46,824 nt of DNA from a virus: IMG/VR virus record IMGVR_UViG_3300030107_003798, positions 1 to 46,824 of that record, one strand, 5' to 3'. Of this stretch, positions 16,001 to 45,300 are shown in pieces. Each line of letters opens with the position of its first letter. The first letter of the stretch is position 1. The position numbers were made by a program, and so were the translations under genes. The notes beneath the pieces are model-generated. The model was not told the DNA's origin and did no database searches. It saw only the letters and a program-made list of their open reading frames with translations.

Positions 16001-19000
16001 TCTTTAGCTAATTTTCCTAAAGTTTTCTTAGCTCTTGCTAATAACTCAGGTCTAAATTCTTTTGGAATACCTGCAGCATCTAGCTGTTCATTAATACTAG
16101 CCAAGCGTTCTTTTGTAGTACCTACTACTATCTCAGGGCCATCAGTAAGTTCAACTGTAGACAAAGCTCTTCGAAGTCCAGAATCCCCTGGTCCAAAAGC
16201 TGGTATGCCTTGTTCCATGTCTCCTACTCTTGCCTCCCAATTTCTTACAAAGCTGTCGTCTAGAGTTCCTCCTTTAATACCTACATCTCCTTCTTTAATG
16301 TTAAAGAGTTGGTTCCAACCCGGAGCAGCTTGGTATTTCCACTCTCCCTGAGCTGGCAAACCTTGTACTTTCATAGACTCTGATGTCAACTGAGCAATCG
16401 TAGGCTCTTGTACTCTAGAAGTAGTCATCGCCCCTTCTAAGGTTTCATACATTACCTGCTTCTTAGCTTGGCTAAGATTGGCATTGCCTGCAATATTTAA
16501 AACTGCGTTAGGATTTTCTCTTAAGAAATTCTTAAGCTCAGTTGGACTAGGGTTTTTTAATACAGGCTTCTTGTGTTCCTTAGCTGCCTCAATCGTTTGC
16601 TTAGTTCCTGCAGAAGACATTCTATCTGCAAATATTAGAGTGACGTCAGAGTCCTTTACATTCTGTACAGTTCTCTGTTTATACCCTACACCTTTTCCCT
16701 TTTGACTTAGGCCTCGTACTTCTGTTAAACCTAACTCTGCTAACTCCGCAGCTTGATCCGTATCTGCTTTGGTTGTAAAACGTTGAGCAGCAGTACCTCC
16801 TGTAGGAATTCCTCTAGACCTAGCCCAAGATAAACCTAGTTGGTCCGCACCTATTTGGCCACCAGAAATTATCTTTACGTTAAGTCCTGGATTAATCTGT
16901 CCTGTAAATTCAGGGAACTCATCAACACCTAGGTTACCTTTTGTTCCTACAGTTTCATCGTATAGTTTCCCTAAACTGTGTTGAGCTTGCAAAGCTTTTT
17001 GAGTGGGGACACCAGGCGTACCTGGATAATCTACTGCAAAACCAGGTGCAGAACCCATTTCACCAGAATCTCCTACCATCGCAGGCTTTTCTTTCTCAAC
17101 CCATCTCATTCCTCTTCCGTGTTGAGCGAACCAAGGTTCTTGTTTACCTGGCGTATCGAACGGATCCCGTTGCTTATTAACCCTATCTACTAACTTTTGA
17201 AGAGACTTTGCTTGGTTTACGTTTCCTTTCCCTGCAAACTTGTCAGTTAACCTCATTCCAAAAGTGGCATCAGCAAGTTCTTCTATCTTACCAGGATTCT
17301 CTTGAGCCCACTTGGACCACAAATCATCGTAAGCCTGCTCTAATTCTTTAGGGGACATTTGATTAGGAGCATTCTTTCCTTTGTCTGCCTTGGCTTTTTT
17401 CAAGTCCCAACCTAAAGACCTGTATCCTTTTACGTCTAATTGGTACGCCTCTTCAATAGTTTTTCCATCTGCAAACTTTGCGTTAAAAGCGCTAAACTGT
17501 TTACCTAACTTATCACCTGCGGTAGATACTTCAAACGTACCTACTGGTTCTTGCTTAGGCTTCAGGGTACCTCTTCCTACTTTAGGAGTTACTCCAAGTT
17601 TTGTAGCTAGTTCGCCTTCCGGATAAACTTCTCCGTATTTACCAAAGTTTTTATGTAGGCTTGCTATCTCATCATCGTACGTCGCTATTCTAGCGTCTAT
17701 CAAATCAAAAGGATTAGTAATCTTATCCCCTCTTCTTAAAAGTCCTGAGGTCCTTAAACCAACTAGAGATGCTATAGCAGGGTCAACTCCTTTACTCCTG
17801 CCTCGAACTTTAGCTATGTCGTCAGGACTTACATATACCATTCCAGGTTTGTAATCAGCATACCCTTCAGGGCCACGCTTCATATCCACGCCATAATGTG
17901 GCTTATCTTTTGGAGTCTTGTGTTTTCCAGGAGGTGCAGAAAGACCCCCTACACCTTTTTTCTGGAAGTAAATTTTAGCTCCTGGAATACCTTTCGCTTT
18001 ATTACCTCCCACAAAAGCCTGGTCGTACCATTTATTCTTACTCTTATAACGTTTTTTAATTACGGCAGGGTTTAAATCTTTAGGGTCTATCTCTATGTAA
18101 GGACCGTGGTCTCCATAAACCACTCTGTTATATTTAGTAGCGATAGCCTTACCATCTGTGGTTTTTAAATTTACTGCCTTACCTATCTCTGATAAACCTG
18201 GGTGTTGCTTCGCTATTCTTTCTGCGTCTCTTAATCTGTTAGGACTATTTATAGTAGTAGGATGTTTAGGTAATATGCCTTCTCTTAACCACGCAGGAAA
18301 TTGTCCTTTCCTATTTAACAGTCCGTGTCTTGTAAGAATTTCTGGTGAAAGGTTACGTGCCTTTAAGAAGTCATACAGGTTTCTTTCTCCCGTTAAAGAA
18401 GGTTGAGGCTCTAATAAATTTTTAAATGCCTTTATTAAATCCATCCTCTCAAACTCTTTGTTAGTCATCATGAGTTCCTCTAACATCTCTGTGTCAATAG
18501 TCCCATAATCATCTGCCGTGAACCCTAGTTCCTGTAACGCCCCCTCCAATTTCTTAACGTCTTCCTGATCGGTTTTCGCCCCTGTACCCATTGAAGAATT
18601 TACGTCTTCTTTATGTTTAAAAAAGTCCTCCGAGTCATCAAGGTCATCTGCGATATTAACCCTCCAAGGAGTTATCTCATCTAAACCATTAAGTGAGAGA
18701 GCATCATCTACTGTAAGCCTCGGCCTAGTGTTTGGCTTAGAAAGGTAGTTTTTAAGTATAGCTAGGCCACCGTGTTCTAAATCAGCCGCTACCTTTTGTA
18801 GGTCTACACCACTTTCTACTAAGCGCTGTCTAGTATCTGCCCAGTGTTTAGCGTAAGCATCATAACCATCTAGCAAACCTTCATTCTTAAGGTTCTGTTC
18901 TATTATAGGTTCTACTGAATTACGTATCTCATTCCTCATAAACCTCGTAAGATTTCTATGAGCTCTGTTAGATAGTTGTATGTCTGGAGCTATTTGTAAA

Positions 19001-22000: not shown

Positions 22001-23253
22001 GAGGAGGCAAAAAAGAATTCGCTTGCTCCGTCCTCACCGAATCTCCTCTGCACCGCTTGCCTAAAGGTAAGATTCTTTTCTTTCGCCTCTCTTTTAATTT
22101 GTTCAGCTACTATATCAACGTGCTCACTCATCTGTCTTTGAGACTGAGTGATGTGTACTTTGTTACCTTGCTCGTTTAATATGTAGGCCTGGTTGTATAT
22201 CCTATCTGCGGTAGTACCATGCACCTTGGCTTTGTCCACAGAATTCATGAATGGTTTCGCACCATCTACCATATACCTAGCTACTGCCCTAGGAAGAGCA
22301 CCGTCTTTAAGACCTTGACCAAAGTTTTTAACTACGCTCTTAGTCTTTTCGTTAGCAACTCTTAGTCCAGCGATGTTATTAAGTACTGGGTCTATAAGTC
22401 TATAACCTAGTTTTAAAGGAGTACCGTAAGTACGTTTAAGTACATTACCATACCAATTCATCCAGCCATCATGCTTAGCTAAGAATGCTGGAGGTTTAAT
22501 GTAAGCTCCAGGTATAAACAAGTCTAGCAAGGGAAGGGTTAGCCCCATCTCTCTCTTCCTTCCGTTCTTCATTAAGTTGTTTAAAGATCCGGATAGTAAT
22601 TCCTTATCTGTCTTTGTGTCTCCTAACTTAAGCAGTCTTTTTTGTAGTACGTCTAAATCATCTAGCTCTTGAAAAGATAGCTTCTTACCTAGAACGTTTC
22701 CTGCTTCATCTAAAAATCCTCCGTTCTGCTTAGCGTGGTCTATGCCTTTAACCAAATCACTTACAGCTGTCTTATCATGTATAAGCTTTTCAGCATCAAG
22801 ACCTAACTTAGGTTTAGCTACATCATCTAATCTACCTGCTCCATAGTGTGCAGCTCTATGAAAATGCTCTGTGTTCTTAACGCCTGAGAAAGCTTTGCCT
22901 GTTGCTTTAGCAGTCCTAGCCAATCCTGTAAGGCCACTGGTCGCAAATGCTAAAGGGTCTGTCAATATAGACATACCTATCTGAGCTCCTAAGTGGTCTC
23001 CAAACAATTCGTCTGGCATAACGGTGTTCTTATTATCGAAAGCCATACCTAGGATAGGTAGTAAGGCAGGGTCTAACAAACCTTGCTTACTCCACAAATC
23101 TATATCTTCTTCCTTTGCTGCTCTCCACATACGCCATAAAGGTTGTTGAACAATACCGAACGTAGTATTAAATACTTTGTCAATAGTTCCGGGCTGCTGC
23201 TTAGGCCTTGCCCCTTGAAGAAGTGCTTGTGGGTTTCTATATCCTCCAGTCAT
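13021..23253 (-). CDS. Giant ejection/polyvalent virion protein, 3,410 aa, with internal SLOG domain
   Basis: Predicted large internal virion protein injected with the DNA. It takes the place of T7 gp16 in a small-medium-giant series. The first 1,600 residues are charged and helical with an alanine-rich start (AFATSGLTGLARTAKATGKA). At about 1,720-1,810 is a block (GPYIEIDPKD to PGMVYVSPDD). At about 1,905-2,026 is a compact domain that starts FEVSTAGDKLGKQF and ends at LTDKFAGKGNVNQAKSLQKL. At about 2,126-2,258 is a circularly permuted YpsA-type SLOG domain (KIISGGQIGADQLGLSWARS, GIPTGGTA, DVTLIFADRM). The C-terminus has DYSDLTQFEKVAAKRMAFFY then TFPRKMIP (near 3,150), a pattern seen in large phage polyvalent proteins. 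No RNA polymerase motif was seen. The gene is 10,233 bp, 22 percent of the genome, with an intact frame. Confidence 0.93.
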   Translation of the reverse strand: MTGGYRNPQALLQGARPKQQPGTIDKVFNTTFGIVQQPLWRMWRAAKEEDIDLWSKQGLLDPALLPILGMAFDNKNTVMPDELFGDHLGAQIGMSILTDPLAFATSGLTGLARTAKATGKAFSGVKNTEHFHRAAHYGAGRLDDVAKPKLGLDAEKLIHDKTAVSDLVKGIDHAKQNGGFLDEAGNVLGKKLSFQELDDLDVLQKRLLKLGDTKTDKELLSGSLNNLMKNGRKREMGLTLPLLDLFIPGAYIKPPAFLAKHDGWMNWYGNVLKRTYGTPLKLGYRLIDPVLNNIAGLRVANEKTKSVVKNFGQGLKDGALPRAVARYMVDGAKPFMNSVDKAKVHGTTADRIYNQAYILNEQGNKVHITQSQRQMSEHVDIVAEQIKREAKEKNLTFRQAVQRRFGEDGASEFFFASSKASAAEEINAFKSQLSTFLTRKELGTLDTNVGQLDFETLRVDSKVANSKSYHLGKQLRTMYTKMFKNDLGVQGAEDLKTFARRQEAMTSQAIEAMAHRLYALRDELAEQGSYTEEAIDQIMYSKLSLTTGPEEMADFFSNLDSGEMTLAQFSNELNEFLGGRVAGTVELLKTTAAENLLSGAKGMQDMLDALSVPILDIDASLVKKVAAENKEDALKLNHLRAGGQLDSVETIRLVEKYQLDSTKTLFTRMTGGSLDLGVEINRWEELGGADKVGGEEVVTLGLNAGDPQFMTFGSRTKMKTSDGGSTPLLKRNETTGNLEGVHIASLPRQVLFGQKKTNTEAASPGIIHTLREAHDVLSKFIESGGKAKDFKGKFKYLLGDNPTQADLHEALHAVKADGLALKKLQGIMKAEEDFTLIKPDMTDSSRFRPTYTKAVNIIGETKDGKAVRLDDISSAFGDEIKDVKNLGAVVTRLRTRQAALDQYVRLNGTQLNNMPKSIPDTFKEGFQEDMLLMQDLLTKALVKPLSKDKNGNTIDTAERLFNALDSQRTWTRMQAVKHNLLPKGATPLGYLARVASGEELGVVETALNDVIDLVPELKNEIAPAIAKARMSRSMTVHQLNEVLAVTKRASDVHPSLADDVKKLEAVREAITGTPDYKRFSTDPTASIIAHHSQVQEAINRGDWFRYIEKHGAEHGAVAGRIIDVVEGGSERGILATGVRGTKSTLSTKGEGIPELMRTPKEHWAEMTSASEVLKGVRATNNNKVDFQVLMPEDYWVVDGRNALEGSDHARTLLEKLYTNNVLNESGVLMLREAFRNNPKLINSLSGSESEEAIQAFSNMLKQKPTTAIGRAILKRGVGDAQTEQANAFLSTIATSALRETDTFKDLSLSKTLIVNKLGTQGYLDWATKGFKVDKETARRSLSSDEDFAAMIGASVLTKQGTKNLKEMGLGKWARDFTERIKRILSQVIKGFTGGSQQHLDEKLHKNLVKQLEGVVGGALQIAPDIQLSNRAHRNLTRFMRNEIRNSVEPIIEQNLKNEGLLDGYDAYAKHWADTRQRLVESGVDLQKVAADLEHGGLAILKNYLSKPNTRPRLTVDDALSLNGLDEITPWRVNIADDLDDSEDFFKHKEDVNSSMGTGAKTDQEDVKKLEGALQELGFTADDYGTIDTEMLEELMMTNKEFERMDLIKAFKNLLEPQPSLTGERNLYDFLKARNLSPEILTRHGLLNRKGQFPAWLREGILPKHPTTINSPNRLRDAERIAKQHPGLSEIGKAVNLKTTDGKAIATKYNRVVYGDHGPYIEIDPKDLNPAVIKKRYKSKNKWYDQAFVGGNKAKGIPGAKIYFQKKGVGGLSAPPGKHKTPKDKPHYGVDMKRGPEGYADYKPGMVYVSPDDIAKVRGRSKGVDPAIASLVGLRTSGLLRRGDKITNPFDLIDARIATYDDEIASLHKNFGKYGEVYPEGELATKLGVTPKVGRGTLKPKQEPVGTFEVSTAGDKLGKQFSAFNAKFADGKTIEEAYQLDVKGYRSLGWDLKKAKADKGKNAPNQMSPKELEQAYDDLWSKWAQENPGKIEELADATFGMRLTDKFAGKGNVNQAKSLQKLVDRVNKQRDPFDTPGKQEPWFAQHGRGMRWVEKEKPAMVGDSGEMGSAPGFAVDYPGTPGVPTQKALQAQHSLGKLYDETVGTKGNLGVDEFPEFTGQINPGLNVKIISGGQIGADQLGLSWARSRGIPTGGTAAQRFTTKADTDQAAELAELGLTEVRGLSQKGKGVGYKQRTVQNVKDSDVTLIFADRMSSAGTKQTIEAAKEHKKPVLKNPSPTELKNFLRENPNAVLNIAGNANLSQAKKQVMYETLEGAMTTSRVQEPTIAQLTSESMKVQGLPAQGEWKYQAAPGWNQLFNIKEGDVGIKGGTLDDSFVRNWEARVGDMEQGIPAFGPGDSGLRRALSTVELTDGPEIVVGTTKERLASINEQLDAAGIPKEFRPELLARAKKTLGKLAKEEKRVNKFFNQVQRLQAKKARFVKQLEPRLEAMRRTYRKSLNEEFRQSNVHQLEEQMGVLDSMVQDLTRNPQLRHRAVALDFLAASKLSKRDLDRLQDTFASEDVVNAEMRLTGKELTELQRKLYNHIGEDKNRTYDRINEVFNNVSKAEKLMSDLSNKALNVKELKFIDNLIHSEPARALANNGQLSAVLRIPEKGKWATSHTEEIARLKDLKEKLVTEHSRQSGRELEDVMSLRDRYEPLGDNRPYGAFRKDSAEYTAIGDSEDIIFETRRELEALRDRATAGAERLKEARAVDKPAMSRAAYKEKVANLKQKALEDQVRMMVRHPDSAATENLQANRLEGIYNSKVSGDKFDYRHHAIPDKTSSSSMKAQAAAETDKYHKRKALQLHTKEEDLAGDMTNAPYTIRIETREGIVEVPSDRLTALEYTLQSIGQGRNMDEAIKEGSRHGRPRELLGEQASAMNVKRMMGHQITLAPRQMNKAIHQQLRQGTPAKFASALKWYDAVHTTLKYLATSLRLPLDFHTANTISAMPQALMEDIGPAAMIRGFLDTGKIFAENVDDMAKLDKASAVMQSSALNPNVRKTPFSRLFSLHDKVEAGRYNAANPTGLEQGTMIRAGGQVYDYNDVIKAMLEEGALDTMIRADFVNIRDADSAVKAIRDMYKRTPGQGMRKGWQDVKKGAELSELFVRFSAMHGALHSGMDLRSAAQATARAMVDYSDLTQFEKVAAKRMAFFYTFPRKMIPKSLEFMFNNPGKSGSLLNAVIKDKEHVKTSEGRLEVAIGDKRVNVGRLAPQADAMVALASVADIFMPALGNLITTEEGLLAGDPRMRRFTGEASPDRPIGPSPILNVAGWKELLPTEDPLSGSTDWLEEMSRVSWALKVLAGDPILGSKDPEVEYSKLELAARTVVPYRKVRPGQEEEQMSRRIQAHKMRYERQLEQATADGEVTTAKFLREDIELMDRRLEELKRDISRAKGKAQRKQADSEYIRRPR
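16480..16880 (-). other. Circularly permuted YpsA/SLOG domain within the giant protein
   Basis: Codons for residues about 2,126-2,258 of the giant virion protein. Signatures: nucleotide loop SGGQIGADQLGL, GIPTGGTA, a middle strand (DVTLIFADRM) and SAGTKQTIEAAKEHKKPVL, followed by AVLNIAGNAN. SLOG domains bind nucleotide-derived ligands. The two-glycine loop and following acid (GADQ) are intact, so ligand binding is likely. Confidence 0.8.
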
Positions 23254-26200
23254 TATTCTGATTCCTCTATGTCATAGGTGCCTGCTTCAACTTGATAGGC
23301 TAGGTAACCTAATCCCATATTATATAAAAATTGTGTTGCTATTTCTTTATTAGGTAGCATGGTTAAAGCTTTATGTATTCTCTCAGCTCCTTGCAGAACT
23401 CTATCTGCTTTATCAGAACCTTCACCTGCTTTCATTAATTCGCTAGGGTCTCCAGCATTTAATATCTGTTGAATAGTAGGAGGTCCGAAACGTTCTCGTA
23501 TCTCCTTCCTACTTGCTATTGGGTTTGGCGGTTCTAAAAATTCTGAAGTTGTCCAACCTTTTACAGTCATATCTACACCTAGTTTAACTGCAGAACCTAA
23601 AGCTTCTAAGTTTCTTGGAGCATTCTCTTTAAACTTCCTTATAAGAGTTTCAGCTGAATCTCTAATTCCTCCAGAAACTCCTAATCCAATTTTCTGAGCT
23701 CCCCAACCTATTCTATCAGCTGCTCTACCTGCACCTTTAACTACATTTTTAGCCAGTGCTTGTACAATAGTATTAGTATCTTCGTCGTTAGCTTGCATAA
23801 GCCTTCCGTTTAAAGTCTTCATATGAGGCGGTTCCTCCATTACAGCGTGTGCTCCCAAACCAGTTCTTACAGCCATGTCAAAAGCTATTTGTTCTTTAGC
23901 AAAGGCCACGAGTAGTGGGTTCCTTGCGATAGTATCTACGGTACCTTGGGTAATGTTTTTACCTGTAAAAGATGCGTAAGCTCTTAAAGCATCGCCAAGC
24001 TCCATGTCCATCATATGTCTGTATGTCTCACCTATTAAATTTTCTCTGTTTACTAGGAGACCGTTCTGCTTTCTTGTGTAAGCTTCTCTAGCAGCTGGAT
24101 TTTTTATTTGACTAGCTAAAATTTCCTCTTGAACAATATTAACATATTCAATAGCTCCTAGTACGCCGTTCTTATTTATCCTAGCTCCTTGTAGGTGTTC
24201 GGTTACACCTTGTAAAGCGCTTTCTCCTAAACCTAAGGCAGAGATTCCAGTACCTATAACATTGGTACCTCCTTGCCCTGGTGCTCTAGGAAGTAAGGCT
24301 ATATCCTCTGCAGTCATACCCATTTGCTGAGCCATGTGTATTTGTAAATCAGAAATTCCCTCGGTCAGGCTTGAGTACAAACCTGTTGAGAAGTCGGTAG
24401 CCATAATCGTATCACCACTCTGACCTAAAAGCATTTGCATAGGCGCAGCTTGGAGAGTTTGATTGATTAAAAGGTTAGCTTCTTGAGTGGCTTCCCAACT
24501 AACCAACCTCTCTTTTAGCATAGTTCTAAGTCCTATCTCTGAGTCGTCTAGACCCTCTGAGAATTCTTTAACATTTAAAAGTTCTAAAGCTCCCTCAGCT
24601 TGTTGCATTAAAAACTTCTGCTTAGCATCACCCTCTTGTCTAAACTGAGCGCTCCTACTTTGAAGCTCCCAAGCAAACCTTTCAGACTGGTTCTTAATTT
24701 CTCCAGTAGATACAGTGTTAGTTGTCGAATCATACACAAGGTTATCGACATCTAAAGTTATTAGTTGTTGGGTCCTTGGGTCCATGAGAACCCTGAGTGT
24801 GTCCGCATCCAGATACTTATCCCACTCATTGGTGATAAGAGCTTCAACCCAACCTGATCCTCTTATAGGTATAGAATCAAAACTTCCTTTGTACTTTTTA
24901 AACGTTTCTATAGCTGGAGCAAATCTATCCTGTAAACGACCTATAGCACCTATAACTGATTCAGGATTGTTATCCATGTCAATCCCTACTAGTCCTATCA
25001 TCTCCAGAGTTTTAAGTCCAAACTCCGCAGGTATTAAGCTGGCGTCCGTAAATACATCTGTCCAGCCTGGAGGATTGTTTCCTACTTGGGTATGGTCTAA
25101 CGCCATCAACGCTTTTCCTATGTCAAGTAGTAAGCCTTCTTCGTTTGAAGAAAACAAAGCTTGAACGTTAAAACTATCCTCTTGCTTGTCTGCAAAATCT
25201 CCTAGAGTTGTAGCTCCATCGCTCTGAGGTTTCCAATCTTTGCCTGCGCTACCGTAAGCCTGTGCTTGAATCTCTGACCAACTAGTTGTCACAGCTATTG
25301 CTCCAGGTGTAGTAGGGTCTGCAATTAAATTCTTTCCTTCTGCCTTAAGTCTGTTGACTACCTCATCAGGAAAATAACCTGTAGATAAATAAGCTGGGGA
25401 AGTTACAAAGTCTGCAAACTTCTCTATGTTTGCTGGAACCGTAGCTAAAGGAGTTAAGTCCTTTATTAAAGCTTCGTTCCAACCTGCTGGATAACCAATG
25501 ATATTACCCATCTCATCTGTAGTAAACTTACCTTCCGCTACTAATTTGGCAGTCTCACTTCCCGTACCTAGAACACCTAAGTCTGTTGCCATAGTTTGAA
25601 ACTGAGTCTTTAAATCTCTTACGGCTTTAAACTGTATCTTCTGTTGACCGGTAAAAGTTTTGTAGTCAGCTAAGTTTCTAAACGCAGGCAGAGCTTTTTT
25701 AATTAGCTCTTCTCCTCCGTCTTGTTTATACAGGTTAGACCCATGAGTCTTTAGCAACTCTAACTCGTCCTTAGTTAAACCTGCAGCTTCTAAAGCTTTT
25801 TTATATTCTTCCTGTGCTTGTAAGTCTTCTCCCTCTAAACCCGTAGCTGCAGCTAAAGCATCTAACTGTTGAGAAGCGTTATCTAGTATAGTTTTCTCTA
25901 TACTATATTTAGACCCTGAAGCATTAGCCTCATCAAGCAACTTGCCATAAGCCGCTGATGTTTTGTTCCAAGTCTTCAACGCATTTCTTATCTCTTCGGT
26001 AGTAGAAGGCCACACTTGTCCTGTAGTCGTCTGTACTCCTGGCTTTAAACCAGCTAGGGCGGTATCATCCTGCGCCTTTTGATATGTAGTTCTTTGATTA
26101 TTAGCGAGGTTCATTGTATCTTGAACTCCCATGTGTCCTACATCTAAGTCACCTACCTCAGGTGCAAGGATGTTTATCCCTGTAGTTTTACGAGTCATCT

Positions 26201-26957
26201 CTGCTGCAGCTATCCAGTTATCTTGATACCACTGAGTTAACTCTTCACTTCCCATAAACATAGAAGGACTCTTCGTAAGGTTTTCAAAGTTCTGTTGTTG
26301 AATAGAAAATGCAGTCTTTATTTTACCTAGGTTATGAGTCTCTTCTTCCCGCTTAATCCTGTCCTGGTTCATATCCATAGATACCATCCAGTTAAGTTCT
26401 TCAGGATTAGTAGCAGAACGATACGCTTTTATTTGAGAGCTTGAAAAATGTCCTGAGTTTTCCATCCAGTCGAGCTGGTCTTTAACAGTTTGAGCACTCT
26501 CTATTTTTGCGAACGCTTCTCTAGCATCTGCATCAGACATACGAGCAAGAGCGTCTACTCCTCCAAGCTTAGCAATACTAGCTGCTGAATCTGGATTCTC
26601 GGTTAAGAATAGTTGGTACTTCTTAGCCCTAGATAACATAGCGTTATATCTAGCTAAAGCATCTTGTTGTTGCTTCAGTACACCTGGAAGATTCTCTGTT
26701 CTATTAACTACATCGAAACCCCCTACTATACCTGCAGATAAAGCTTGACCAAGCATGAGTCCCCAGTTAGGACCTTGCTCCATCTTAGAAGAAGCATCTC
26801 GCATATCCCTAGCTTGTACTGAAGCATCGGCAGCAGCCTGAGCTTCAGCGAAACTAGACCTTGGTTCAGCGGCCTCTTTATCTTTTGCGAGTACAGGGTT
26901 CCCTTCGTAGTCAGTTAATTCTGGGTCTGGTATATCATTTAGTGGGTCTACTGCCAT
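23253..26957 (-). CDS. Medium ejection protein (T7 gp15-like position), 1,234 aa
   Basis: Large, soluble, helical and acidic, with an alanine-rich, low-complexity flavour and no enzyme motif seen. It starts MAVDPLNDIPDPELTDYEGN and ends YQVEAGTYDIEESE. In the late operon it lies between the small (210 aa) and giant (3,410 aa) internal proteins, the place of T7 gp15. T7 gp15 is 747 residues, so this protein is much larger. It probably forms the hub or tube of the DNA-ejection assembly in the periplasm. Its stop overlaps the giant gene's start as TAATG, so the pair is coupled at about equal ribosome flow. The assignment is by gene order, size and composition. Confidence 0.8.
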   Translation of the reverse strand: MAVDPLNDIPDPELTDYEGNPVLAKDKEAAEPRSSFAEAQAAADASVQARDMRDASSKMEQGPNWGLMLGQALSAGIVGGFDVVNRTENLPGVLKQQQDALARYNAMLSRAKKYQLFLTENPDSAASIAKLGGVDALARMSDADAREAFAKIESAQTVKDQLDWMENSGHFSSSQIKAYRSATNPEELNWMVSMDMNQDRIKREEETHNLGKIKTAFSIQQQNFENLTKSPSMFMGSEELTQWYQDNWIAAAEMTRKTTGINILAPEVGDLDVGHMGVQDTMNLANNQRTTYQKAQDDTALAGLKPGVQTTTGQVWPSTTEEIRNALKTWNKTSAAYGKLLDEANASGSKYSIEKTILDNASQQLDALAAATGLEGEDLQAQEEYKKALEAAGLTKDELELLKTHGSNLYKQDGGEELIKKALPAFRNLADYKTFTGQQKIQFKAVRDLKTQFQTMATDLGVLGTGSETAKLVAEGKFTTDEMGNIIGYPAGWNEALIKDLTPLATVPANIEKFADFVTSPAYLSTGYFPDEVVNRLKAEGKNLIADPTTPGAIAVTTSWSEIQAQAYGSAGKDWKPQSDGATTLGDFADKQEDSFNVQALFSSNEEGLLLDIGKALMALDHTQVGNNPPGWTDVFTDASLIPAEFGLKTLEMIGLVGIDMDNNPESVIGAIGRLQDRFAPAIETFKKYKGSFDSIPIRGSGWVEALITNEWDKYLDADTLRVLMDPRTQQLITLDVDNLVYDSTTNTVSTGEIKNQSERFAWELQSRSAQFRQEGDAKQKFLMQQAEGALELLNVKEFSEGLDDSEIGLRTMLKERLVSWEATQEANLLINQTLQAAPMQMLLGQSGDTIMATDFSTGLYSSLTEGISDLQIHMAQQMGMTAEDIALLPRAPGQGGTNVIGTGISALGLGESALQGVTEHLQGARINKNGVLGAIEYVNIVQEEILASQIKNPAAREAYTRKQNGLLVNRENLIGETYRHMMDMELGDALRAYASFTGKNITQGTVDTIARNPLLVAFAKEQIAFDMAVRTGLGAHAVMEEPPHMKTLNGRLMQANDEDTNTIVQALAKNVVKGAGRAADRIGWGAQKIGLGVSGGIRDSAETLIRKFKENAPRNLEALGSAVKLGVDMTVKGWTTSEFLEPPNPIASRKEIRERFGPPTIQQILNAGDPSELMKAGEGSDKADRVLQGAERIHKALTMLPNKEIATQFLYNMGLGYLAYQVEAGTYDIEESE

Positions 26958-27594: not shown

Positions 27595-27852
27595 TTAATA
27601 CTCCACTATTAGGTTGATAGGCTTTCCTGCCTCTTGGTTGCTTGTGACTGAAAGCTTACCGCTCTCCTGTTTTAAATCCGAAGACACCCCGTCAGAGGAT
27701 AGTACCCTCCTAGGTTGTGCTCTTCTTGGGTTGTTAAGTTCTACCTTCTCACCTGGGCCACGGCTTATTGCTTTTATTACAACACCTTCCGTGTCGTTCC
27801 ACTTACTTCCGTGGGCGACTGGTTGATTATCTTGATCTACTTTACTGCGCAT
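27595..27852 (-). CDS. Unknown virion-region protein, 85 aa
   Basis: Start ATG 27852 overlaps the end of the large nozzle/adhesin gene by 11 bases. Small, basic in the middle (NNPRRAQPRRVL), strand-rich, probably soluble. No motif recognised. Between the tail nozzle/adhesin and the small ejection protein, it may be a tail accessory or assembly factor, but this is only context. Confidence 0.68.
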   Translation of the reverse strand: MRSKVDQDNQPVAHGSKWNDTEGVVIKAISRGPGEKVELNNPRRAQPRRVLSSDGVSSDLKQESGKLSVTSNQEAGKPINLIVEY

Positions 27853-30800
27853 TTGGTACCGTAATATCTATGTCCACATGAGAGATAGCGGTAGCTTCCG
27901 GCTTTCTATTCCGCAAGATACCTCTTAGGAAGCGACCTCTAACGTCACCTCCGACTGTCGTGTCATTAACAGCGACAGTAACGAACTGAGCGTCGGCGAT
28001 AGATGTACGAGTTCCCGCCATAGGAGAACCCGCAAAGCCTACCTCTACGCCCGATCCTGACTGAATACTTATTTGAGTTTCATTAATCATTGAAGATTCT
28101 GCACCCGTATCTATGTATCCAGAGTCTACTATCATACCATCAGAAGATGCTCCGAAGTATATAGTAGCTGCACCATCTGCTATTGAGTCATGTGCTGCCA
28201 CTGTTATAGTAGTTGAATTAAAAGCACTTATTGTAGTGTCTTGTGTCGAACCTGCTGAGTCCACAATTCCTATACGCATATCTTTGTGAACCTTAGTCTC
28301 TAAGTTACCATCAGTTGTGAATACAGCTCCACTGATAGTTCCTGTGTTTGATGCAGGCGTATCAGTCTGTACATCATCTCCGTATACTGAAGTGTTACCT
28401 GTAGAGTAAGAACCACTAACGTTTACCCATTGGTCTGTTCCAGTAGAAGAATCACCTACAGCTAATGCGTATCTCTTCTCTACTGTTACTTCTCCTGTAG
28501 GAATAAACAGTCTTAAAACGTCTCCTGTATTCTCATCTATTATGAAAAGACTTTGTAGGTTAGTGCTGCAAGCTAAGCGTACATTGCTGTGTGTTGGTAA
28601 TAGGTCTTGGAAAGGAGTACCTACGTCTGTAGTTTTAAAATCTACCTGTCCTACTCTATCCATTAACCATAGCCTACCATTAAAGGCGTAGACTTGACCT
28701 GACATCTCTACGCTTGCTCGAGGTGAATAAGCACCTACGCCTCCGCCTAGAGGGAATTCTGTTTCGTTTCCAGGAGCTCCGATTAGGGCTGTAGTCCAAT
28801 CCTGACCGAACAAGTACAAGGTGTCGCCTGTTGATCGACAACCTACTAACTCACTTGCTCCTCCTCCACCAGATACTCTGGCATCGTATATCATGTCGTA
28901 TGGGAAAGTCTCCCAACCGAATGGTCCTGGTTCTGTGTAATACACCCTGTTGTTTTCTCCTATAACACCTACTTGACCTTGCCATGTAAAGAATTGTTTT
29001 ATCTTATCTGGTACAGCGAAGTCAGTCCACGGTGCTGCAAAGCCTAAGGCAGAGTTAGGGGTGTCATCTATAAAGTGTTTAGTATCAGACGGCACTCTAG
29101 CAAGGAAGTATAGCGGAGCATATCTCACACTATCTAATGCTTTTTGAACGTCATCTTCTACGTCTATATCAACTATACCTTGAGTAATCGTACGGAATAA
29201 TTCTATAGCTGCTATGTCTGGACGAGGAAGTTCTGGGAAAGCTACCGCGTTAGTTCCAGTCTCTGCTGTATGCTCATCTTGAAGCATACTGTTGTTATCT
29301 AACTCTAAGTTACCTAGATCTGAAGAACCACTAGCAGTACCTACATTCTTAATTAAAGTACCACCTTCTACAGTTAAGTCTCCTTTTATCATTCTCCAAT
29401 AGGCCAGTAAGTTGCCCCAATCGTCAGGAGCTACTCGGTTAGATACGTTCCATCCGTTAGGTCCTGGTTCTCCTGTGTGACACTTAGGACCTTGACCATC
29501 TGCCCAGATTCTAAACTCACCTACATAAACATCTACATCATTGTTAACTCCATCCGTATCTGGAGAGCCTCCTATATGTATCCAGTTTTTAGTTGCGTCA
29601 GAAGTTGCTTCCGCTTCTGTCCACTGTGCGTCGGTCTCCATAATAGGAGTATCAAACACAACGTTACCATTTATAGCCATGCCCTCTATGTACAGGGCTG
29701 GGTTAGAACTATCTCCTACCTTATGACGTAGTTGTATGCTATACATATTCCACTCATGGAAATCGTTTACAAACTCGTGATCTGATATACGTGCAAAGTG
29801 GGTGTCAGTTCCTCCGCCTGGAATCTCCTCGTTAGATATGGTGTAAGCAGCCTTACCCATAGTTTGTAGAGTAATACTTCCTGCTCCTCTATTAGAGTAG
29901 TACAAAGCTAACGGCATATTAGATATGGCAGAAGAAGAGGTCTTATTACCGAAGGTAAAGATAGCGTTCCTCTTAGTCTCTGCGTGTGCAACCTCTTGTT
30001 CAAAAATCTTAGCCTTTACTTTAGCAGTCCTTGTCCTGTAGCTGTTCCATAGAAGTCCTGCATTTCCATTAGGGTTTGAGTCCACGAAATGGTCTTCCTC
30101 TTGTGCGTTGTCTGACCAATCGAAGTGCGCATCAATTACATTCCCTGCATACAATGCTCCTCCAGGTTGAGCTGAATTCTTTAAGTACCCATGTTCTCTA
30201 AGCATAGTTTCAGTAGGCGCTACACTCCAAGCTCTTGCATGGAACTGTACGTCTTCTGGAAGCATAGGCATTAACTCATGATTAGAGTAAACCCTTCTGC
30301 CGTCGTCAGTACTGTAACCGGCCCAAATCAGGTCTCTAGGTCTATCATACGTACTCGAAGAGCCGCACCAATAGCCCCAATTAGCACTTCTTTCTACTTG
30401 TCCATCGGTGCCTATTGGAGGAACAGAATAGCTATATGACCCTACACCTTTAACTATAAACTGCGTATTGTCAGGATTCCCTGGATTAGACCAACCTGCA
30501 AAGAAATCGGTACTGCTATAAGTACCTGACGTTCCTCCATGTCCGCTATACCCTGATAGCTGAGCTTCCATAGTTCTTCCAACTAAGACATGCCACTTCT
30601 CATCCGTTGCATTGTGGACATAAACCTTCAAATCATCGTCTTCTCTAACAACAAAGAGAGAGTAGTCTTTATTGTATTGCCAACAAGTATGGTCATTATC
30701 AGTTCCTCCGGTACATTCACTCGCATCAGTAAAGGTTATCCACTTCATATTAGACTGTGGTCCGAATTGACCCTCCGCTAGACCTGCAGAACCATGCTGG

Positions 30801-33301
30801 TGAAAATGCTCATACCGTTCTCTTGCTATACCTATTACTAGTCTGGTGTGGTTATCGTCGCTATTACCATATACACCCCTACCAGTGCTGACTTCATTAG
30901 TCTTGGTTACCCTACGGGCCCATTTACCTCTAGTTGATGTTGCGCTACTGGTACCTCCAGTCATTAAATACGCACACATGGCTGGGTTTGTTTGGTCAGA
31001 CCTACCGTGACAAGCATTTCTATGCATTCCTATCCTTTCACCTATAGAAAAGATACCCATGCCTGGGTAATAGCCGTTGTAGTAATAAGAGGTGCCCCTA
31101 TCAAACGTACTCTTTCCGCTATATTTGAACGAGGTTTGTATAGCAAAGTCTTGGTTAAGATCCATTTGGAAGTTACCGGTTCTCCAATACTGTCTTCTCT
31201 GCTCGTGTGTACTATTACCGTTACTACTTGTAGATTGTAATCCTCTTCCCCAGATAGTCTCTGGCATCTCGTCCACGTCTAACTTCTCTACCTTTGCAAA
31301 GCATTCAACTACTATACGTTTCTCATCGTTTACTGTGCCAAAGATATCAGTAGTACCTGAGTCAGCTTGAGCGTGAAGATGTCCTCCTTTAGTAGACTTT
31401 ATAAAAGTTTCTCCCATTTCTGAGACACCATCATCAGCTCCAGAAGAGGAGCCAATAATAAATCTTCCTGCTGTTGAATCTACATAAGACGGATCTAGTC
31501 TACGGATAGGTCCATAGGTTCCGTCGCTAGTTACGTATCTGTAGCCATAACTTGCTGCTCCTTCTAAAACTCCAGGAGCTGTGGGTTGAACAGATACATT
31601 ACGCCAAGGTGAAGGAACACCGTACTCTCTTACGCTTTCTGCTTCTTCATCTATTACGTGTCCTACATCACCACTAGCTACTAAAAGTTTTGAACCTATA
31701 CGTAATACCTCTGCATCTTTCTTAAATGCTAGAGCCATACGTTGTTTGCCTTTAGTAAATCCTGTGACGTTGCCTTCTCCTAATACGTGACCGCCAGCTA
31801 CTGCAACATAGCTACCGTCATCAAGAGGACCTGAAGCGTGACTACAAGAGCCACCTACATCGCTTTTAGCTAGTCCATGTAAGCCTGTCTTTCTAGTTGA
31901 TTTGTCCACGAAAGATGCGCCTTCCATATAAACAAGCGCGTCATCTGTAGCGCCTAAGTCCTTAGTAACCTCTCCTTTGTACATCGCAAACTTAGTTAAA
32001 GTTCCGCAGTACTTAGTTCCTGTATCTGCAGCAGCTGAACCCACCCATAGTTTAGGAGGGTTATTCATGTCAAAGTAAGGAGGTAACCATGTAGCTATAG
32101 TACTAATCCCTCCATCATCGTAGTCTCCGTCATGTATTATGTATAACCTTTCGTCAGCCGTCTTAGTAGCGAATATCTCAAAGTCTGGATTAGACCTAGT
32201 TAATAACGTCCCACCATCATCATAGGTGTGGGTAGTTCCACTAACTGTGAAGGTTAAATGCCCAGAAGAGTTTATTGCTAATACACCTAAATCGTCGAAG
32301 TCCAAAAGTGTCTGAGCTTTACCCTCCTCTAACAAGGTACCTTTAAGATAGAAGGTATATGAGGCAGAAAACAAAGCAGATCTATTCTTAGCTGTAAAGA
32401 ACTGCTCAATGTCCTGAGTCATTTGAACCCTGAGCGCAGAGCTTCTACCATTGAATACAATAGAATCTGCAGCCGCAACAGGAGGTGACGGATCACAAAG
32501 TAACATATCAGTATCATTAGTTACTTCTGAACTGACAGCTTGACCACCTGCTGAAAGTAGGTAGTGGTTTTGTAGGTTTGTACTAGTAGGAGTTCTGTCA
32601 GCATATAAGCCTTCGGAGTCTGAAGTGTTCTTAGCTCCTGTGTATATAGCCAAGTTAGATATTACATGAGGTACGTGAGATACCTTAGTTTTCTCTAATA
32701 CGCTATTACCTAACAGCTCTACAGTAAACTTATCTGTTGCTACAGGAGCCTTAGTAAACTCCTCTGCAGCATCTGTTGACGAATGCATAATGAACTTATC
32801 ATTTGAATCGTCATAAGTAAGTACCAGATTAACTACAGTACCTTGAGTCTTAGCAGTGTCTAATGCTATGTCAGTAGAAACGTCACTACTGTTTAATCTT
32901 CCCCCTGCTTTTATAGTACAAGTGGTTGCATTGTTATACTCGCTATAAACTTCCCAGTAGTTATTATTGTCTTTTACTACACTAAGTATAGGAAGTCTAT
33001 TAGCAACTGAATCTACTTGTTTAGAATCTAGATGCAATCCTACCTTAAGAGAAAAGGATATAGTCCAGCTTGCTGAAGCCGTTAAAGGTTGTGTACTAAA
33101 CCAACAAGCTCTTTCGTCGTCACCATCTACTACAACGCCTAGAGCGTTAGCCTTATCATCAACACGAACAGATCCATGTCGGCGATTAAGCTCTAACATA
33201 TTAGTAGGATCTGTTTCCTGCTTAAGTAATACAGCCTTATCATCTCCTGCAGCCTGAGCTACACGATTCATAGGCTTATTGTCGAAACGTTGTTTTGGCA
33301 T
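27842..33301 (-). CDS. Tail nozzle/adhesin with several lectin-like domains, 1,819 aa
   Basis: I place the start at ATG 33301 (MPKQRFDNKPMNR), in a TAATG overlap with the upstream stop; an upstream in-frame ATG at 33340 lies inside that gene. At least four blocks look like laminin-G/concanavalin-type beta-sandwiches, about residues 70-220, 310-440, 710-940 and 1,085-1,265 (for example ASWTISFSLKVGLHLDS, and GEFRIWADGQ at the end of the fourth). The last 450 residues (about 1,365-1,620) read like the beta-propeller of nozzle proteins: FFTWQGQVGVIGENNRVYYT, then GDTLYLFGQDWTTALIG, SGQVYAFNGRLWLMDRVGQV and LQSLFIIDENTGDVLRLF. T7 gp12, the nozzle, has about 790 residues. So I read this as a nozzle-class protein that has gained carbohydrate-binding lobes. 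Position after the adaptor supports this. Confidence 0.78.
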   Translation of the reverse strand: MPKQRFDNKPMNRVAQAAGDDKAVLLKQETDPTNMLELNRRHGSVRVDDKANALGVVVDGDDERACWFSTQPLTASASWTISFSLKVGLHLDSKQVDSVANRLPILSVVKDNNNYWEVYSEYNNATTCTIKAGGRLNSSDVSTDIALDTAKTQGTVVNLVLTYDDSNDKFIMHSSTDAAEEFTKAPVATDKFTVELLGNSVLEKTKVSHVPHVISNLAIYTGAKNTSDSEGLYADRTPTSTNLQNHYLLSAGGQAVSSEVTNDTDMLLCDPSPPVAAADSIVFNGRSSALRVQMTQDIEQFFTAKNRSALFSASYTFYLKGTLLEEGKAQTLLDFDDLGVLAINSSGHLTFTVSGTTHTYDDGGTLLTRSNPDFEIFATKTADERLYIIHDGDYDDGGISTIATWLPPYFDMNNPPKLWVGSAAADTGTKYCGTLTKFAMYKGEVTKDLGATDDALVYMEGASFVDKSTRKTGLHGLAKSDVGGSCSHASGPLDDGSYVAVAGGHVLGEGNVTGFTKGKQRMALAFKKDAEVLRIGSKLLVASGDVGHVIDEEAESVREYGVPSPWRNVSVQPTAPGVLEGAASYGYRYVTSDGTYGPIRRLDPSYVDSTAGRFIIGSSSGADDGVSEMGETFIKSTKGGHLHAQADSGTTDIFGTVNDEKRIVVECFAKVEKLDVDEMPETIWGRGLQSTSSNGNSTHEQRRQYWRTGNFQMDLNQDFAIQTSFKYSGKSTFDRGTSYYYNGYYPGMGIFSIGERIGMHRNACHGRSDQTNPAMCAYLMTGGTSSATSTRGKWARRVTKTNEVSTGRGVYGNSDDNHTRLVIGIARERYEHFHQHGSAGLAEGQFGPQSNMKWITFTDASECTGGTDNDHTCWQYNKDYSLFVVREDDDLKVYVHNATDEKWHVLVGRTMEAQLSGYSGHGGTSGTYSSTDFFAGWSNPGNPDNTQFIVKGVGSYSYSVPPIGTDGQVERSANWGYWCGSSSTYDRPRDLIWAGYSTDDGRRVYSNHELMPMLPEDVQFHARAWSVAPTETMLREHGYLKNSAQPGGALYAGNVIDAHFDWSDNAQEEDHFVDSNPNGNAGLLWNSYRTRTAKVKAKIFEQEVAHAETKRNAIFTFGNKTSSSAISNMPLALYYSNRGAGSITLQTMGKAAYTISNEEIPGGGTDTHFARISDHEFVNDFHEWNMYSIQLRHKVGDSSNPALYIEGMAINGNVVFDTPIMETDAQWTEAEATSDATKNWIHIGGSPDTDGVNNDVDVYVGEFRIWADGQGPKCHTGEPGPNGWNVSNRVAPDDWGNLLAYWRMIKGDLTVEGGTLIKNVGTASGSSDLGNLELDNNSMLQDEHTAETGTNAVAFPELPRPDIAAIELFRTITQGIVDIDVEDDVQKALDSVRYAPLYFLARVPSDTKHFIDDTPNSALGFAAPWTDFAVPDKIKQFFTWQGQVGVIGENNRVYYTEPGPFGWETFPYDMIYDARVSGGGGASELVGCRSTGDTLYLFGQDWTTALIGAPGNETEFPLGGGVGAYSPRASVEMSGQVYAFNGRLWLMDRVGQVDFKTTDVGTPFQDLLPTHSNVRLACSTNLQSLFIIDENTGDVLRLFIPTGEVTVEKRYALAVGDSSTGTDQWVNVSGSYSTGNTSVYGDDVQTDTPASNTGTISGAVFTTDGNLETKVHKDMRIGIVDSAGSTQDTTISAFNSTTITVAAHDSIADGAATIYFGASSDGMIVDSGYIDTGAESSMINETQISIQSGSGVEVGFAGSPMAGTRTSIADAQFVTVAVNDTTVGGDVRGRFLRGILRNRKPEATAISHVDIDITVPNAQ

Positions 33302-33861
33302 TATGAAGCTGGTCCGATTGGAATAACTGTAAGCACACACTCGTGTACTGTTAGGTTTCCTGATGATGTTCCACTAGAGTGAGTAACCTCTAACGTTATT
33401 ACATCTGTAGCAGCGATAGAAGTTAAAGCATGTCCAGCGACGTTAATCTTTCCGTCAGCTGCACCTGATTGTTCGTGAGCATAAGAACCTGCAAGAGCGC
33501 TACCATCATTAGCTAATCTTGCTCCTAAGTGTCTAGCACCTGTGTTGTTAGACATAGTTACAGAATACATAACCAAACATATGTGAGGATTGTTTACTGT
33601 AATCTGATCGCTACTGTGTGATTCTGTGGTTCCTTGTCCTAGGCCAGAGACTGCAGAGAATCCCGTAACCTTAGTCCACGTGGAGCCTATTGCCCCTAAG
33701 TTATTAGTAACCCCTGTGCCTGTTATACTTCCTGCAACTGGTTTAATCAGTTGGTCTACAGTTACCTTAGTTAGATAACCTGAGGAAGTGTCACTGAGGG
33801 GAAGAAGATCCGCCTTTGCTAAGTTAGCAGGGGATGCTGTTAAGTCGCCGACTAGTACCAT
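33301..33861 (-). CDS. C1q-like trimerising tail protein, 186 aa
   Basis: The N-terminal 50 residues look like a tail-attachment piece (TASPANLAKADLLPLSDTSS). The C-terminal part (about 80-186) alternates strands in the manner of C1q/TNF-like jelly rolls: QITVNNPHICLVMYSVTMSN, HLGARLANDGSALAG, and a closing LTVHECVLTVIPIG. Such domains form trimeric receptor-binding heads or fibre tips. Start ATG 33861, and its stop overlaps the ATG of the large tail gene. A tail fibre, decoration or collar protein are the main options. Confidence 0.7.
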   Translation of the reverse strand: MVLVGDLTASPANLAKADLLPLSDTSSGYLTKVTVDQLIKPVAGSITGTGVTNNLGAIGSTWTKVTGFSAVSGLGQGTTESHSSDQITVNNPHICLVMYSVTMSNNTGARHLGARLANDGSALAGSYAHEQSGAADGKINVAGHALTSIAATDVITLEVTHSSGTSSGNLTVHECVLTVIPIGPAS

Positions 33862-37947: not shown

Positions 37948-38302
37948 TCCGCTTGGCTTTAAGTTTGTCTGCGGCTCGTTTGTGCAAGGCAGCATAGTTT
38001 TGATCTTGTTGGGTTTTGTATCCACCTGTATCCATGCTGAGTCCATTACGCTCATAAGCCCTTATCATCTGCTTCTCAGACTTTACCACATAGTCAGGAT
38101 TACTGGGATTTAGTTGGTATATCTTCTTACCATCTGCCCAAGTGTGTTTAGTTCCACCCATACTAGTGAGTTTATCGTCTGAAGGAATAGGTCGTATATC
38201 AGAAGCATCGCATGGACAACCTGCCTTCTGAGCTGCAGACCAACCCGCAGCCTGCAGAGTATGCTCACAGTTTGTGCATTTGTAGAGACTGCGGGGGATC
38301 AA
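37937..38302 (-). CDS. Zinc-ribbon protein, 121 aa
   Basis: The N-terminus has a CxxC (YKCTNCEHTLQ) and then CPC (AGCPCDASDI), a compact zinc ribbon of residues about 8-32. The rest is polar, basic at the end (AALHKRAADKLKAKRNGS), with no further motif. Start ATG 38302 overlaps the portal stop by four bases, and it overlaps the metallopeptidase start by eleven. Possible roles are portal-associated, DNA-binding or a packaging helper, but none is shown. The coupling to the portal gene suggests it is made at similar level. Confidence 0.75.
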   Translation of the reverse strand: MIPRSLYKCTNCEHTLQAAGWSAAQKAGCPCDASDIRPIPSDDKLTSMGGTKHTWADGKKIYQLNPSNPDYVVKSEKQMIRAYERNGLSMDTGGYKTQQDQNYAALHKRAADKLKAKRNGS

Positions 38303-40347
38303 ACTAGACCACCTCCTCCTCCGAGTAACGGAGTCTTATCAATAGGGAACAAGGAACCGCCAGGACCACCTGGGCCCATAGCGCCAGCATCCATCATAGC
38401 ACCAACGTCAGCACTAGGTTGCCCTTCTGGACCAAAACCTGGAACCATTGATTGTCCGCCTGCTTGTTGCATTCCCATCTGAGCCTGCATTAAGAAGTCT
38501 TGGTGTTTAACTATCGCATCTCTCAAAGCTGCCACAGGAACTGATATTGCATTATTTTGTCCTATTGCCCTATCAAGTATTGCGGTGTAATAGCCGATAT
38601 GTAAGTTATGGTCATCAGTTTCTTGCACAAGTATTTCACCTCCATTCTCAAGGAGATTAATGTATCTATCCTCTGGACCCTGTTCAACAACTGGAGCATC
38701 GAGGTAAGCATCCACATTCTCAATTCCCATAAGTAGAGCTACTCTTCTTAGTGACTCCCTAATGATTCTAGGCATGGAGCCTTGGAACTGTAGGAAAGCG
38801 TTACTAAAGATAGTTACCCAACTTAGGAGTTGGTCTGCTTCGTTTTGCTTACTCATGTGTCCTAGTTCGACAGGGTCTACACGGAATTGGAAGTCTGCCA
38901 TCTTAGCGGTAGGAACCATTATCTCGTTAACTACTCCGTTGTCAGATACTATTCGTACCTTACTACCTAGTATGTTACGTTGGTTGTGATGAATAACTTG
39001 AGCTACGTCCTGCCAAACACGAGACATAACCTTGAGTCTGTCTTCGTTACGTTGGTTACTTGAGGCCGCTAATGCACCTGCTTCAGTAGCAGACTTACGA
39101 GGATTCTCCGCTCTACCCATACTTGTCGCCGTTACACCTGTTATTTCGTCTAACATATTCATATAGACACCAAAAGCCTGCATAAGCTCAGGTATATGAT
39201 TCGACTTCTCCATAGGTCTCATCTTCTGTGCAACACCATTTTCGTCCGTAGCAATCGGAATATACAGAGTAGCGGATGGGACAGCATCGTTAACTGCGTC
39301 TATATGTTCAGGCTCAATCGAGTCATCATATAGAATGACGTTGTTAACAGTAGTAGCTTCCCTACCTATCTGTATTAAGGTGTTAACAATTCCACGTAAA
39401 GGAGGAATCCAACTAGTGACTTCAGCCGGGGGGACGTCTTCATTAGTCGCTGGTTCGAGGAAGTTACCTACAACAAGCGGACAAACTGGTGCTACCTTAG
39501 TTCCGCAGTAGACCCCCAGAGTTATCGCCTCGTTTTGATCTGGTTCATACGCATCATCTAGTTTGCGTACCCAACAGCTGTAAGGACAGGTTTGATTCTT
39601 CTTGACCTCTTCCGTTAGTTTACGATGACTACCTAAGAAGTTTTCGTGATACACCTCTATTATCTCTACGATGTCGTAGTCTTGAGGTTGTTCTTCCTTA
39701 GGTAGTTTGTTGTACTCTTGTTCAGTCCAGAAGCGGTCGCGTAAGGACTTGGGCATGTCACCAATCTGAGTGCGATACCGTTGATACTTAAACCTACGGT
39801 AAAAAGGTTCCCACCCACAGTCCTTAGCTTCTACTGTCTCTACTCTGATTCTATCATACACAGGCGTCCCTTTATCATAGTCGAACCAGACACGTATCCC
39901 TGCGTAGGGGTTCAAGAGTGCAGACTGTACAAACTTACGCATACACTCCTCCATTTTGGCGTGCTGCATTATAAAGTCGTACAACTTATTCTGCGCCTCT
40001 GCAAACTTTGCTGCCCCGATGTTTCTAGGTTTACAATGTATAGTAGGGACTCCTGGGTTGAGCGCTGTGATTATCTGACGCGCTCTAGTCTGCAGAAGGT
40101 TAGCCATCGTTTGTGGGGCCCGCCAATCAGTAGATACTGAGGTGTGGTCTACCCACTGTTTGAAGTTCATTCCCTGGTCTGGGAGGAAAGTTTCCATAGA
40201 AGATGTGTGGTCTCGGCCTGCGTAGATATCGCTGACTAATTTCTCTATACCTTCGATGGGCTTACGGCAAGCATGGATAGCAAGAAGCAAGCGCTCCTCT
40301 AATTCCTTAATTGCTCGGTCGTTTAAATTATAGTGGCCCTTCTGCAT
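38299..40347 (-). CDS. Portal protein, 682 aa
   Basis: Dodecameric channel at the capsid vertex through which DNA is packed and ejected. Size is typical of podovirus portals (500-730). Features include the N-terminal FLPDQGMNFKQWVD, the wing region with FVQSALLNPYAGIRVWFDYD, a central VTSWIPPLRGIVNTLIQIGR (stem/wing), and a long hydrophobic-charged C-terminus with MGMQQAGGQSMVPGFGPEGQ. The C-terminus ends in a glycine-rich tail (GGGGGLV). Placed directly after terminase (17 bases) and before scaffold, as usual. Call rests on order and size plus pattern resemblance; no search was possible. Confidence 0.88.
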   Translation of the reverse strand: MQKGHYNLNDRAIKELEERLLLAIHACRKPIEGIEKLVSDIYAGRDHTSSMETFLPDQGMNFKQWVDHTSVSTDWRAPQTMANLLQTRARQIITALNPGVPTIHCKPRNIGAAKFAEAQNKLYDFIMQHAKMEECMRKFVQSALLNPYAGIRVWFDYDKGTPVYDRIRVETVEAKDCGWEPFYRRFKYQRYRTQIGDMPKSLRDRFWTEQEYNKLPKEEQPQDYDIVEIIEVYHENFLGSHRKLTEEVKKNQTCPYSCWVRKLDDAYEPDQNEAITLGVYCGTKVAPVCPLVVGNFLEPATNEDVPPAEVTSWIPPLRGIVNTLIQIGREATTVNNVILYDDSIEPEHIDAVNDAVPSATLYIPIATDENGVAQKMRPMEKSNHIPELMQAFGVYMNMLDEITGVTATSMGRAENPRKSATEAGALAASSNQRNEDRLKVMSRVWQDVAQVIHHNQRNILGSKVRIVSDNGVVNEIMVPTAKMADFQFRVDPVELGHMSKQNEADQLLSWVTIFSNAFLQFQGSMPRIIRESLRRVALLMGIENVDAYLDAPVVEQGPEDRYINLLENGGEILVQETDDHNLHIGYYTAILDRAIGQNNAISVPVAALRDAIVKHQDFLMQAQMGMQQAGGQSMVPGFGPEGQPSADVGAMMDAGAMGPGGPGGSLFPIDKTPLLGGGGGLV

Positions 40348-44882: not shown

Positions 44883-45300
44883 TACCTCCGAAGTAAATAC
44901 TCACATTGACGGACTCTCTAAGAATTTAACTAAAAAGTTCCATAGAGAGTTAATGGATTCTCTAACTGTGCTATTTCCTCAAACAGAAGACGGCAAAGAC
45001 CCAGACCCATTCTTATTAACTGCTTGGTTAAAACTACAATCAGTTCTACAGACATACACTAACCCTGTTCAACCAAATGTAGAGCTAACAATAGACACAC
45101 AAGAAGGAGAAGGAAGAGATATCCATTTCAATCTAAATATAACAAGCGATTGGCACAAAGTATACTCAGTACAGTTAACTGCACTAAGATACAACCCAGA
45201 CGGCACTCAAGAATTTATGTTCAAGTCACGTCTACCAAAATCACAACTCATTCAATTACACAATTTTACAGCATCAGCACTAGCACACTATGACAAATAG
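44875..45300 (+). CDS. Unknown early protein, 141 aa
   Basis: Start ATG 44875 overlaps the preceding gene. Helical N-terminal half (THIDGLSKNLTKKFHRELMD) and a strand-rich second half (ELTIDTQEGEGRDIHFNLNI, then SVQLTALRYNPDGTQEFMFK). No membrane segment and no known motif. It overlaps the ATPase gene by 11 bases, so it may be part of the same complex. Function unknown. Confidence 0.75.
   Translation: MSSTSEVNTHIDGLSKNLTKKFHRELMDSLTVLFPQTEDGKDPDPFLLTAWLKLQSVLQTYTNPVQPNVELTIDTQEGEGRDIHFNLNITSDWHKVYSVQLTALRYNPDGTQEFMFKSRLPKSQLIQLHNFTASALAHYDK

Follow-up and report, generated by a model that had tools for sequence, protein, structure and literature searches.

The window analysed here, the whole 46,824-nucleotide stretch of the IMG/VR virus record IMGVR_UViG_3300030107_003798, encodes a 3,410-residue protein that carries a genuine cpYpsA SLOG domain, and this SLOG-bearing giant may deliver from the phage particle a counter-defence directed at ADP-ribose or NAD derivatives, a reading to which we assign a probability of roughly 50%. 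It builds on the two domains recognised in the protein (cpYpsA and phrog_9995), on an intact GxD motif, on the recurrence of these modules in unrelated giant proteins, and on the partner domains that accompany them, all of which were directly observed. The coordinates of the relevant features are collected in Table 1.

Table 1. Features of the window discussed in the text (positions are those of the window).
Feature	Position	Strand	Basis or remark
Giant ORF, 3,410 aa	13021..23253	minus	ORF list; real, uninterrupted frame
cpYpsA SLOG domain, residues 2128-2259	16477..16872	minus	Pfam PF12694; AF2 and Foldseek 3IMK
SGGQIGAD motif, residues 2130-2137	16843..16866	minus	GxD pair G2135/D2137 intact; predicted nucleotide-ligand site in YpsA clade
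phrog_9995 accessory domain, residues 1904-2024	17182..17544	minus	PHROG E 1.1e-26; AF2; Foldseek
IEEAYQLDVK, residues 1933-1942	17428..17457	minus	E1934 and K1942 in invariant columns; resemble NADAR E-x6-K, one residue longer
1,234-aa protein, no recognised family	23253..26957	minus	1-base overlap with giant gene start
1,832-aa protein, no recognised family	27842..33340	minus	Same cluster as giant gene
Portal protein (phrog_156)	38299..40347	minus	PHROG match
Large terminase (phrog_38)	40365..42119	minus	PHROG match

The identity of the SLOG domain is confirmed by sequence and structure comparisons. Residues 2128-2259 score 68.5 bits (E 6.7e-19) with the Pfam profile PF12694 (cpYpsA), whose gathering cut-off is 26.2, over profile positions 1-127 of 145; in the whole record the sole match to this profile is 16477-16872 on the minus strand (E 2.8e-22, no internal stops), and the same search gave no match in any of 14 control genomes. 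The solved structure 3IMK, a member of the cpYpsA family that bears the annotation 'putative molybdenum carrier', is matched by phmmer at residues 2126-2233 (E 2.6e-5) and by a profile built from 17 relatives at 3.4e-55. The AF2 model of residues 2119-2297 (16363-16899), made from 17 relatives, is confident (pLDDT 84.6, pTM 0.79), and its top Foldseek match is also 3IMK (E 2.7e-10, TM 0.75 by target). The preliminary description, which had placed a SLOG/YpsA domain here and proposed a structural model as a check, is thus borne out by the Pfam score, the 3IMK matches and the SLOG fold of the model, and its coordinates and residue numbers were right to within a few residues. The resemblance to the family comprises a near full-length match, the same fold, and the conserved SGGQxGxD, YxxRTxxN and LNxxG motifs; the difference is that cpYpsA proteins usually have a single domain of about 160 residues, whereas the window copy is embedded in 3,410.

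In YpsA proteins the ligand is predicted to sit at the GxD/E motif, and mutants at this position abolish the function of the Bacillus subtilis protein (PMC6459960). At least 90% of the 17 aligned relatives of the window domain carry the motif's Asp, and L028 has Glu there. At the place where the LOG-type PGGxGTxxE motif would put its Glu, the window has T2220, within SAGTKQT, a stretch that, given the circular permutation, is a putative equivalent, and none of the 17 relatives has Glu there; if this equivalence holds, the missing Glu favours binding over LOG-type glycosidase chemistry. The GC content of the domain block is 0.439 and its GC3 is 0.247, compared with about 0.41 and 0.31 for the whole ORF; this is not a composition break, so there is no sign of a recent graft, and a recent insertion or an assembly graft was rejected. 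In the domain tree, the viral copies form a group that also takes in a single bacterial copy (94/93, short of the tool's star), and the window branch is too long for placement.

The genetic context points to a protein made with the particle. The giant ORF starts one base within the stop of the upstream 1,234-residue gene (TAATG), is preceded by a Shine-Dalgarno-like GAGGA, and shares 1 base with the upstream gene and 4 bases with the downstream one. The minus-strand order is terminase, portal, several family-less genes in the head/tail position, and then genes for proteins of 1,832, 85, 210, 1,234 and 3,410 residues, the giant being the last long gene of this terminase-portal cluster. From the 444-residue gene on, neighbouring genes either overlap slightly or lie no more than 41 bases apart; wider gaps, of 193-243 bases, flank the 133-residue gene. 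No PHROG or Pfam family was recognised in the very large 1,234- and 1,832-residue proteins, and relatives of the terminase (79-97%) are present only on contigs of 4.4-5.2 kb. In another record, G005, a cpYpsA giant of 3,420 residues is encoded on the same strand as the terminase, P22-like portal and SU10-like capsid genes, where its position as the last gene presupposes a circular genome, and the cpYpsA giants of further podovirus-like records that match the portal and terminase PHROGs of the window also lie on the head-gene strand, and are last if these records are circular. It is therefore plausible, from gene order, size and compact overlapping genes, that the 3,410-residue protein is carried in the virion and ejected; of the 'giant ejected virion protein' described previously, the giant size stands as observed, and the virion location and ejection stand as a plausible interpretation. 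Elsewhere in the window, a metallophosphoesterase gene (phrog_221, E 1.5e-36) lies downstream of the giant gene at 11201-11941, and a plus-strand gene at 45290-46369 encodes a 359-residue ATPase that matches phrog_249, annotated as porphyrin biosynthesis (E 7.9e-47).

With its 3,410 residues, its combination of cpYpsA and phrog_9995, and its location in a terminase-portal cluster, the protein is of the polyvalent type. Like the phage polyvalent proteins (PMC5512222), it is very large, is encoded with portal and terminase genes, and combines unrelated domains in exchangeable modules; unlike them, it shows by Pfam none of the known LPD domains, and the processing peptidase present in many, although not all, members was not found by Pfam either. 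Searches of the whole protein and of its pieces revealed no further Pfam family at a credible score, and the main text of PMC5512222 makes no mention of SLOG or YpsA. The possibility that the window protein is a crAss-like or N4-like virion RNA polymerase was rejected, as it has no D-x-D-[GI]-D motif, no PDB polymerase match and no vRNAP PHROG match. A GGxDxDGD/DxDID motif resembling the catalytic loop of QDE1/crAss-type RNA polymerases is present in other giants (L003, L004, L005, L006, L054, L064, L074, L076, L079, L081, L002, L047 and L049), for instance as DVLDGDFDGDHV near residue 2355 of L002. A PDB search with the motif-bearing cpYpsA/phrog_9995 giants returned no polymerase match; the motif itself suggests that in those phages the modules may ride on virion RNA polymerases.

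About 100 residues upstream of cpYpsA, the giant protein contains a second domain, phrog_9995, which the preliminary description had overlooked and whose AF2 model reaches a pLDDT of 92.5. In IMG/VR, phrog_9995 was found at 51 loci, 37 in ORFs of 898-3,600 residues, many of them cut by a contig or locus edge, and 14 in ORFs of at most 300 residues. These counts do not reflect frequencies in nature, since the queries were the window copy and three further copies, giant or standalone, and near-copies are present among the records. In the GenBank phages examined it is a small standalone protein, such as PHIKZ082.1 of phiKZ, on which a literature search found nothing, or gene 5 of Achromobacter phage Axy12. 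The likeness of its [ST]-[IV]-E...YQ..K stretch to the NADAR motif was spotted before the structure search: NADAR ADP-ribose hydrolases use the catalytic residues E43 and K50 (8BAU numbering; PMC11543638), and the invariant E and K of phrog_9995 resemble this pair. In the phrog_9995 alignment, both columns are invariant in 41 of 41 rows, and the residues between them number six, as in NADAR, in 17 rows and seven in 20, including the window. The top PDB match of the phrog_9995 model in Foldseek is the NADAR structure 8BAU (E 0.46, probability 0.44), well ahead of the following match at E 4.6, although by itself it does not reach significance. In the viral-model library, outside the family's own members, named NADARs rank 9, 14 and 22; rank 17 is held by a swarming motility protein, a label given to YbiA-type NADARs; unnamed or other proteins rank level with or above them. 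The Pfam NADAR profile PF08719 matched neither the window domain, at E values up to 1, nor phrog_9995 in related records, and hhalign aligned exactly the E...YQ..K motif, yet with a probability of 2-8%. Consequently, phrog_9995 was not accepted as a plain NADAR, as the Pfam and profile comparisons fail and the Foldseek E value is 0.46; at about 135 residues it is compact and resembles NADAR structurally only weakly. We lean slightly towards regarding it as NADAR-like, as a good lead rather than as membership.

The distribution of both domains in other giants differs clearly from that of the surrounding protein. Matches between the window protein and all fetched ORFs are confined to residues about 1855-2067 and 2110-2288, and when the modules are masked, the giants sort into separate backbone groups, with the window alone in its own. 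cpYpsA occurs in five unrelated backbones (the window and the L003-L006, L002, L021 and L040/L075 groups), and the L003-L006, L002 and L021 groups also include members with phrog_9995 in its place. Comparison of L003, L005 and L071 identifies conserved blocks at the N-terminus, in a middle segment and at the C-terminus, the modules occupying the variable stretch between the first two; in L074 the module lies elsewhere. Backbone relatives of the window protein were found neither by viral-contig scans with its N-terminal, C-terminal and 2290-2860 regions nor by a GenBank phage search or psiblast. As judged by these alignments, cpYpsA and phrog_9995 are exchangeable cargo modules in giant phage proteins. 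Other domains accompany them: the L040 family has, in order, phrog_9995, an ASCH-like domain, a split cpYpsA and DUF7831; L075 has a split cpYpsA, phrog_9995 and DUF7831 consecutively; and L002 combines a Dda/RecD-type helicase, an A1S_2505/DUF7831-like domain, a sub-threshold NADAR (E 8e-4) and cpYpsA. The ASCH-like matches in giants are below cut-off (E 0.08-0.14). Among the standalone copies, a cpYpsA record (L018) has a full NADAR about 8 kb away. As separate observations, a Macro-domain-looking ORF (GDIWKFHAEGNWIVITTNGIV...), without a Pfam match, was noticed at L020:6140-6616, about 3.4 kb from a standalone cpYpsA, and in the phage-like record Rctr197k (L013; KX853510.1) the cpYpsA stretch is annotated as a misc_feature, not as a CDS, and has a transposase remnant and a CRISPR array next to it.

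According to the counter-defence reading, the giant would be a protein of the polyvalent type that is produced along with the particle and is likely to be ejected into the host cell, with a cargo region in its middle (about residues 1880-2290) formed by phrog_9995, possibly NADAR-like, and the cpYpsA SLOG. Inside the host, the SLOG would most likely bind a nucleotide derived from NAD or ADP-ribose, candidate ligands being an immune signal, a toxic product or an ADP-ribosylated substrate, and would either soak it up or, together with the neighbouring domain, break it down, with a slight lean towards binding. None of the domains recognised in the window protein has proven ADP-ribose chemistry; the company of ADP-ribose-related domains fits a pre-loaded counter-defence tool, without proving it. 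YpsA-like viral SLOGs have been predicted to degrade or sense signals of the cADPR type or to act on ADP-ribose signals, SLOG, Macro and NADAR domains co-occur, and ART, Macro, NADAR and Nudix proteins are predicted to be packaged in virions (PMC9503650). The window agrees with this viral NAD/ADP-ribose network in having a YpsA-like SLOG in a phage and in the presence, within related giants, of partner domains that belong to that network, and the anti-signal idea was stated there; it differs in that viral SLOG, Macro, NADAR and Nudix proteins are described as typically standalone (PMC9503650), whereas here the SLOG lies within giants of the virion gene cluster. A phage anti-signal strategy is real, as RyDEP anti-Thoeris enzymes, with an unrelated RyR-domain fold, degrade or sequester 2'/3'cADPR (PMC13232231), and a SLOG domain, of the STALD family, is linked to cADPR biology in Thoeris ThsA. 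PADLOC defence-system profiles gave no match at E values up to 1, and membership in a defence system, the ThsA SLOG type among them, was rejected on this basis. The signal-degrading or signal-sensing anti-defence factor suggested by the preliminary description thus gains from the context (NADAR-like, DUF7831 and ASCH-like domains in giants; Nudix, phosphoribosyltransferase or NADAR genes near standalone copies) and from the published prediction, any catalytic activity being putative. Injected phage proteins of large size with several domains have already been described, as has the anti-signal idea, the general idea having been published in 2022; in the literature searched, mostly outside subscription papers, no report was found of SLOG domains in giant virion-operon proteins, of the pairing with phrog_9995, or of the resemblance of phrog_9995 to NADAR.

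The same observations bear on other roles for the domain. The SLOG may instead be a sensor or regulator that binds a host nucleotide and thereby switches another activity of the giant protein, such as ejection, assembly or host takeover, an explanation that we consider unlikely. The ThsA SLOG domains were predicted sensors, SLOG-regulated fusions in phages have been proposed (PMC9503650), and in L040:789-9107 and L075:316-11115 a long insertion, of about 350 residues and coiled-coil-like in L040, interrupts cpYpsA but leaves both halves recognisable, an arrangement that suits binding better than catalysis; nevertheless, the movement of cpYpsA between unrelated backbones and its standalone occurrence in phages indicate that it has no fixed link to any single partner activity. 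Enzymatic housekeeping, or nucleotide salvage, in which the domain would process by-products of NAD or adenine to serve the metabolism of the phage, no less in the producing cell than from the virion, is quite improbable: in L020 a phosphoribosyltransferase immediately precedes the standalone copy, with Nudix and HAD genes nearby, but the window copy sits in a late structural-type gene around which no salvage genes were recognised. Least probable is that the domain acts structurally or binds nucleic acid during packaging or DNA entry and has no nucleotide ligand itself, since, although DprA belongs to the SLOG superfamily and the profile matches DprA chains very weakly (E about 0.07-0.08), the domain is cpYpsA and not DprA by Pfam and the relatives largely retain the nucleotide-binding Asp.

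A tentative and rather doubtful extension of the counter-defence reading is that the giant ejected proteins of many unrelated short-tailed phages share an exchangeable cargo region for ADP-ribose-handling domains (cpYpsA, phrog_9995 as a new NADAR-like family, DUF7831, ASCH-like and NADAR-like), by which the particle would deliver a prepared kit for removing immune signals derived from NAD, or ADP-ribose marks, ahead of any phage gene expression. The two compact domains, of about 140-180 residues, are directly testable pieces, with cADPR isomers, ADP-ribose and ADP-ribosylated nucleic acids as candidate substrates or ligands. If the extension is true, phages would neutralise NAD-based defences at entry, ahead of transcription, giant virion proteins would offer, in their cargo region, a searchable catalogue of anti-defence tools, and phrog_9995, present in phiKZ and other cultured phages, would acquire its first function.
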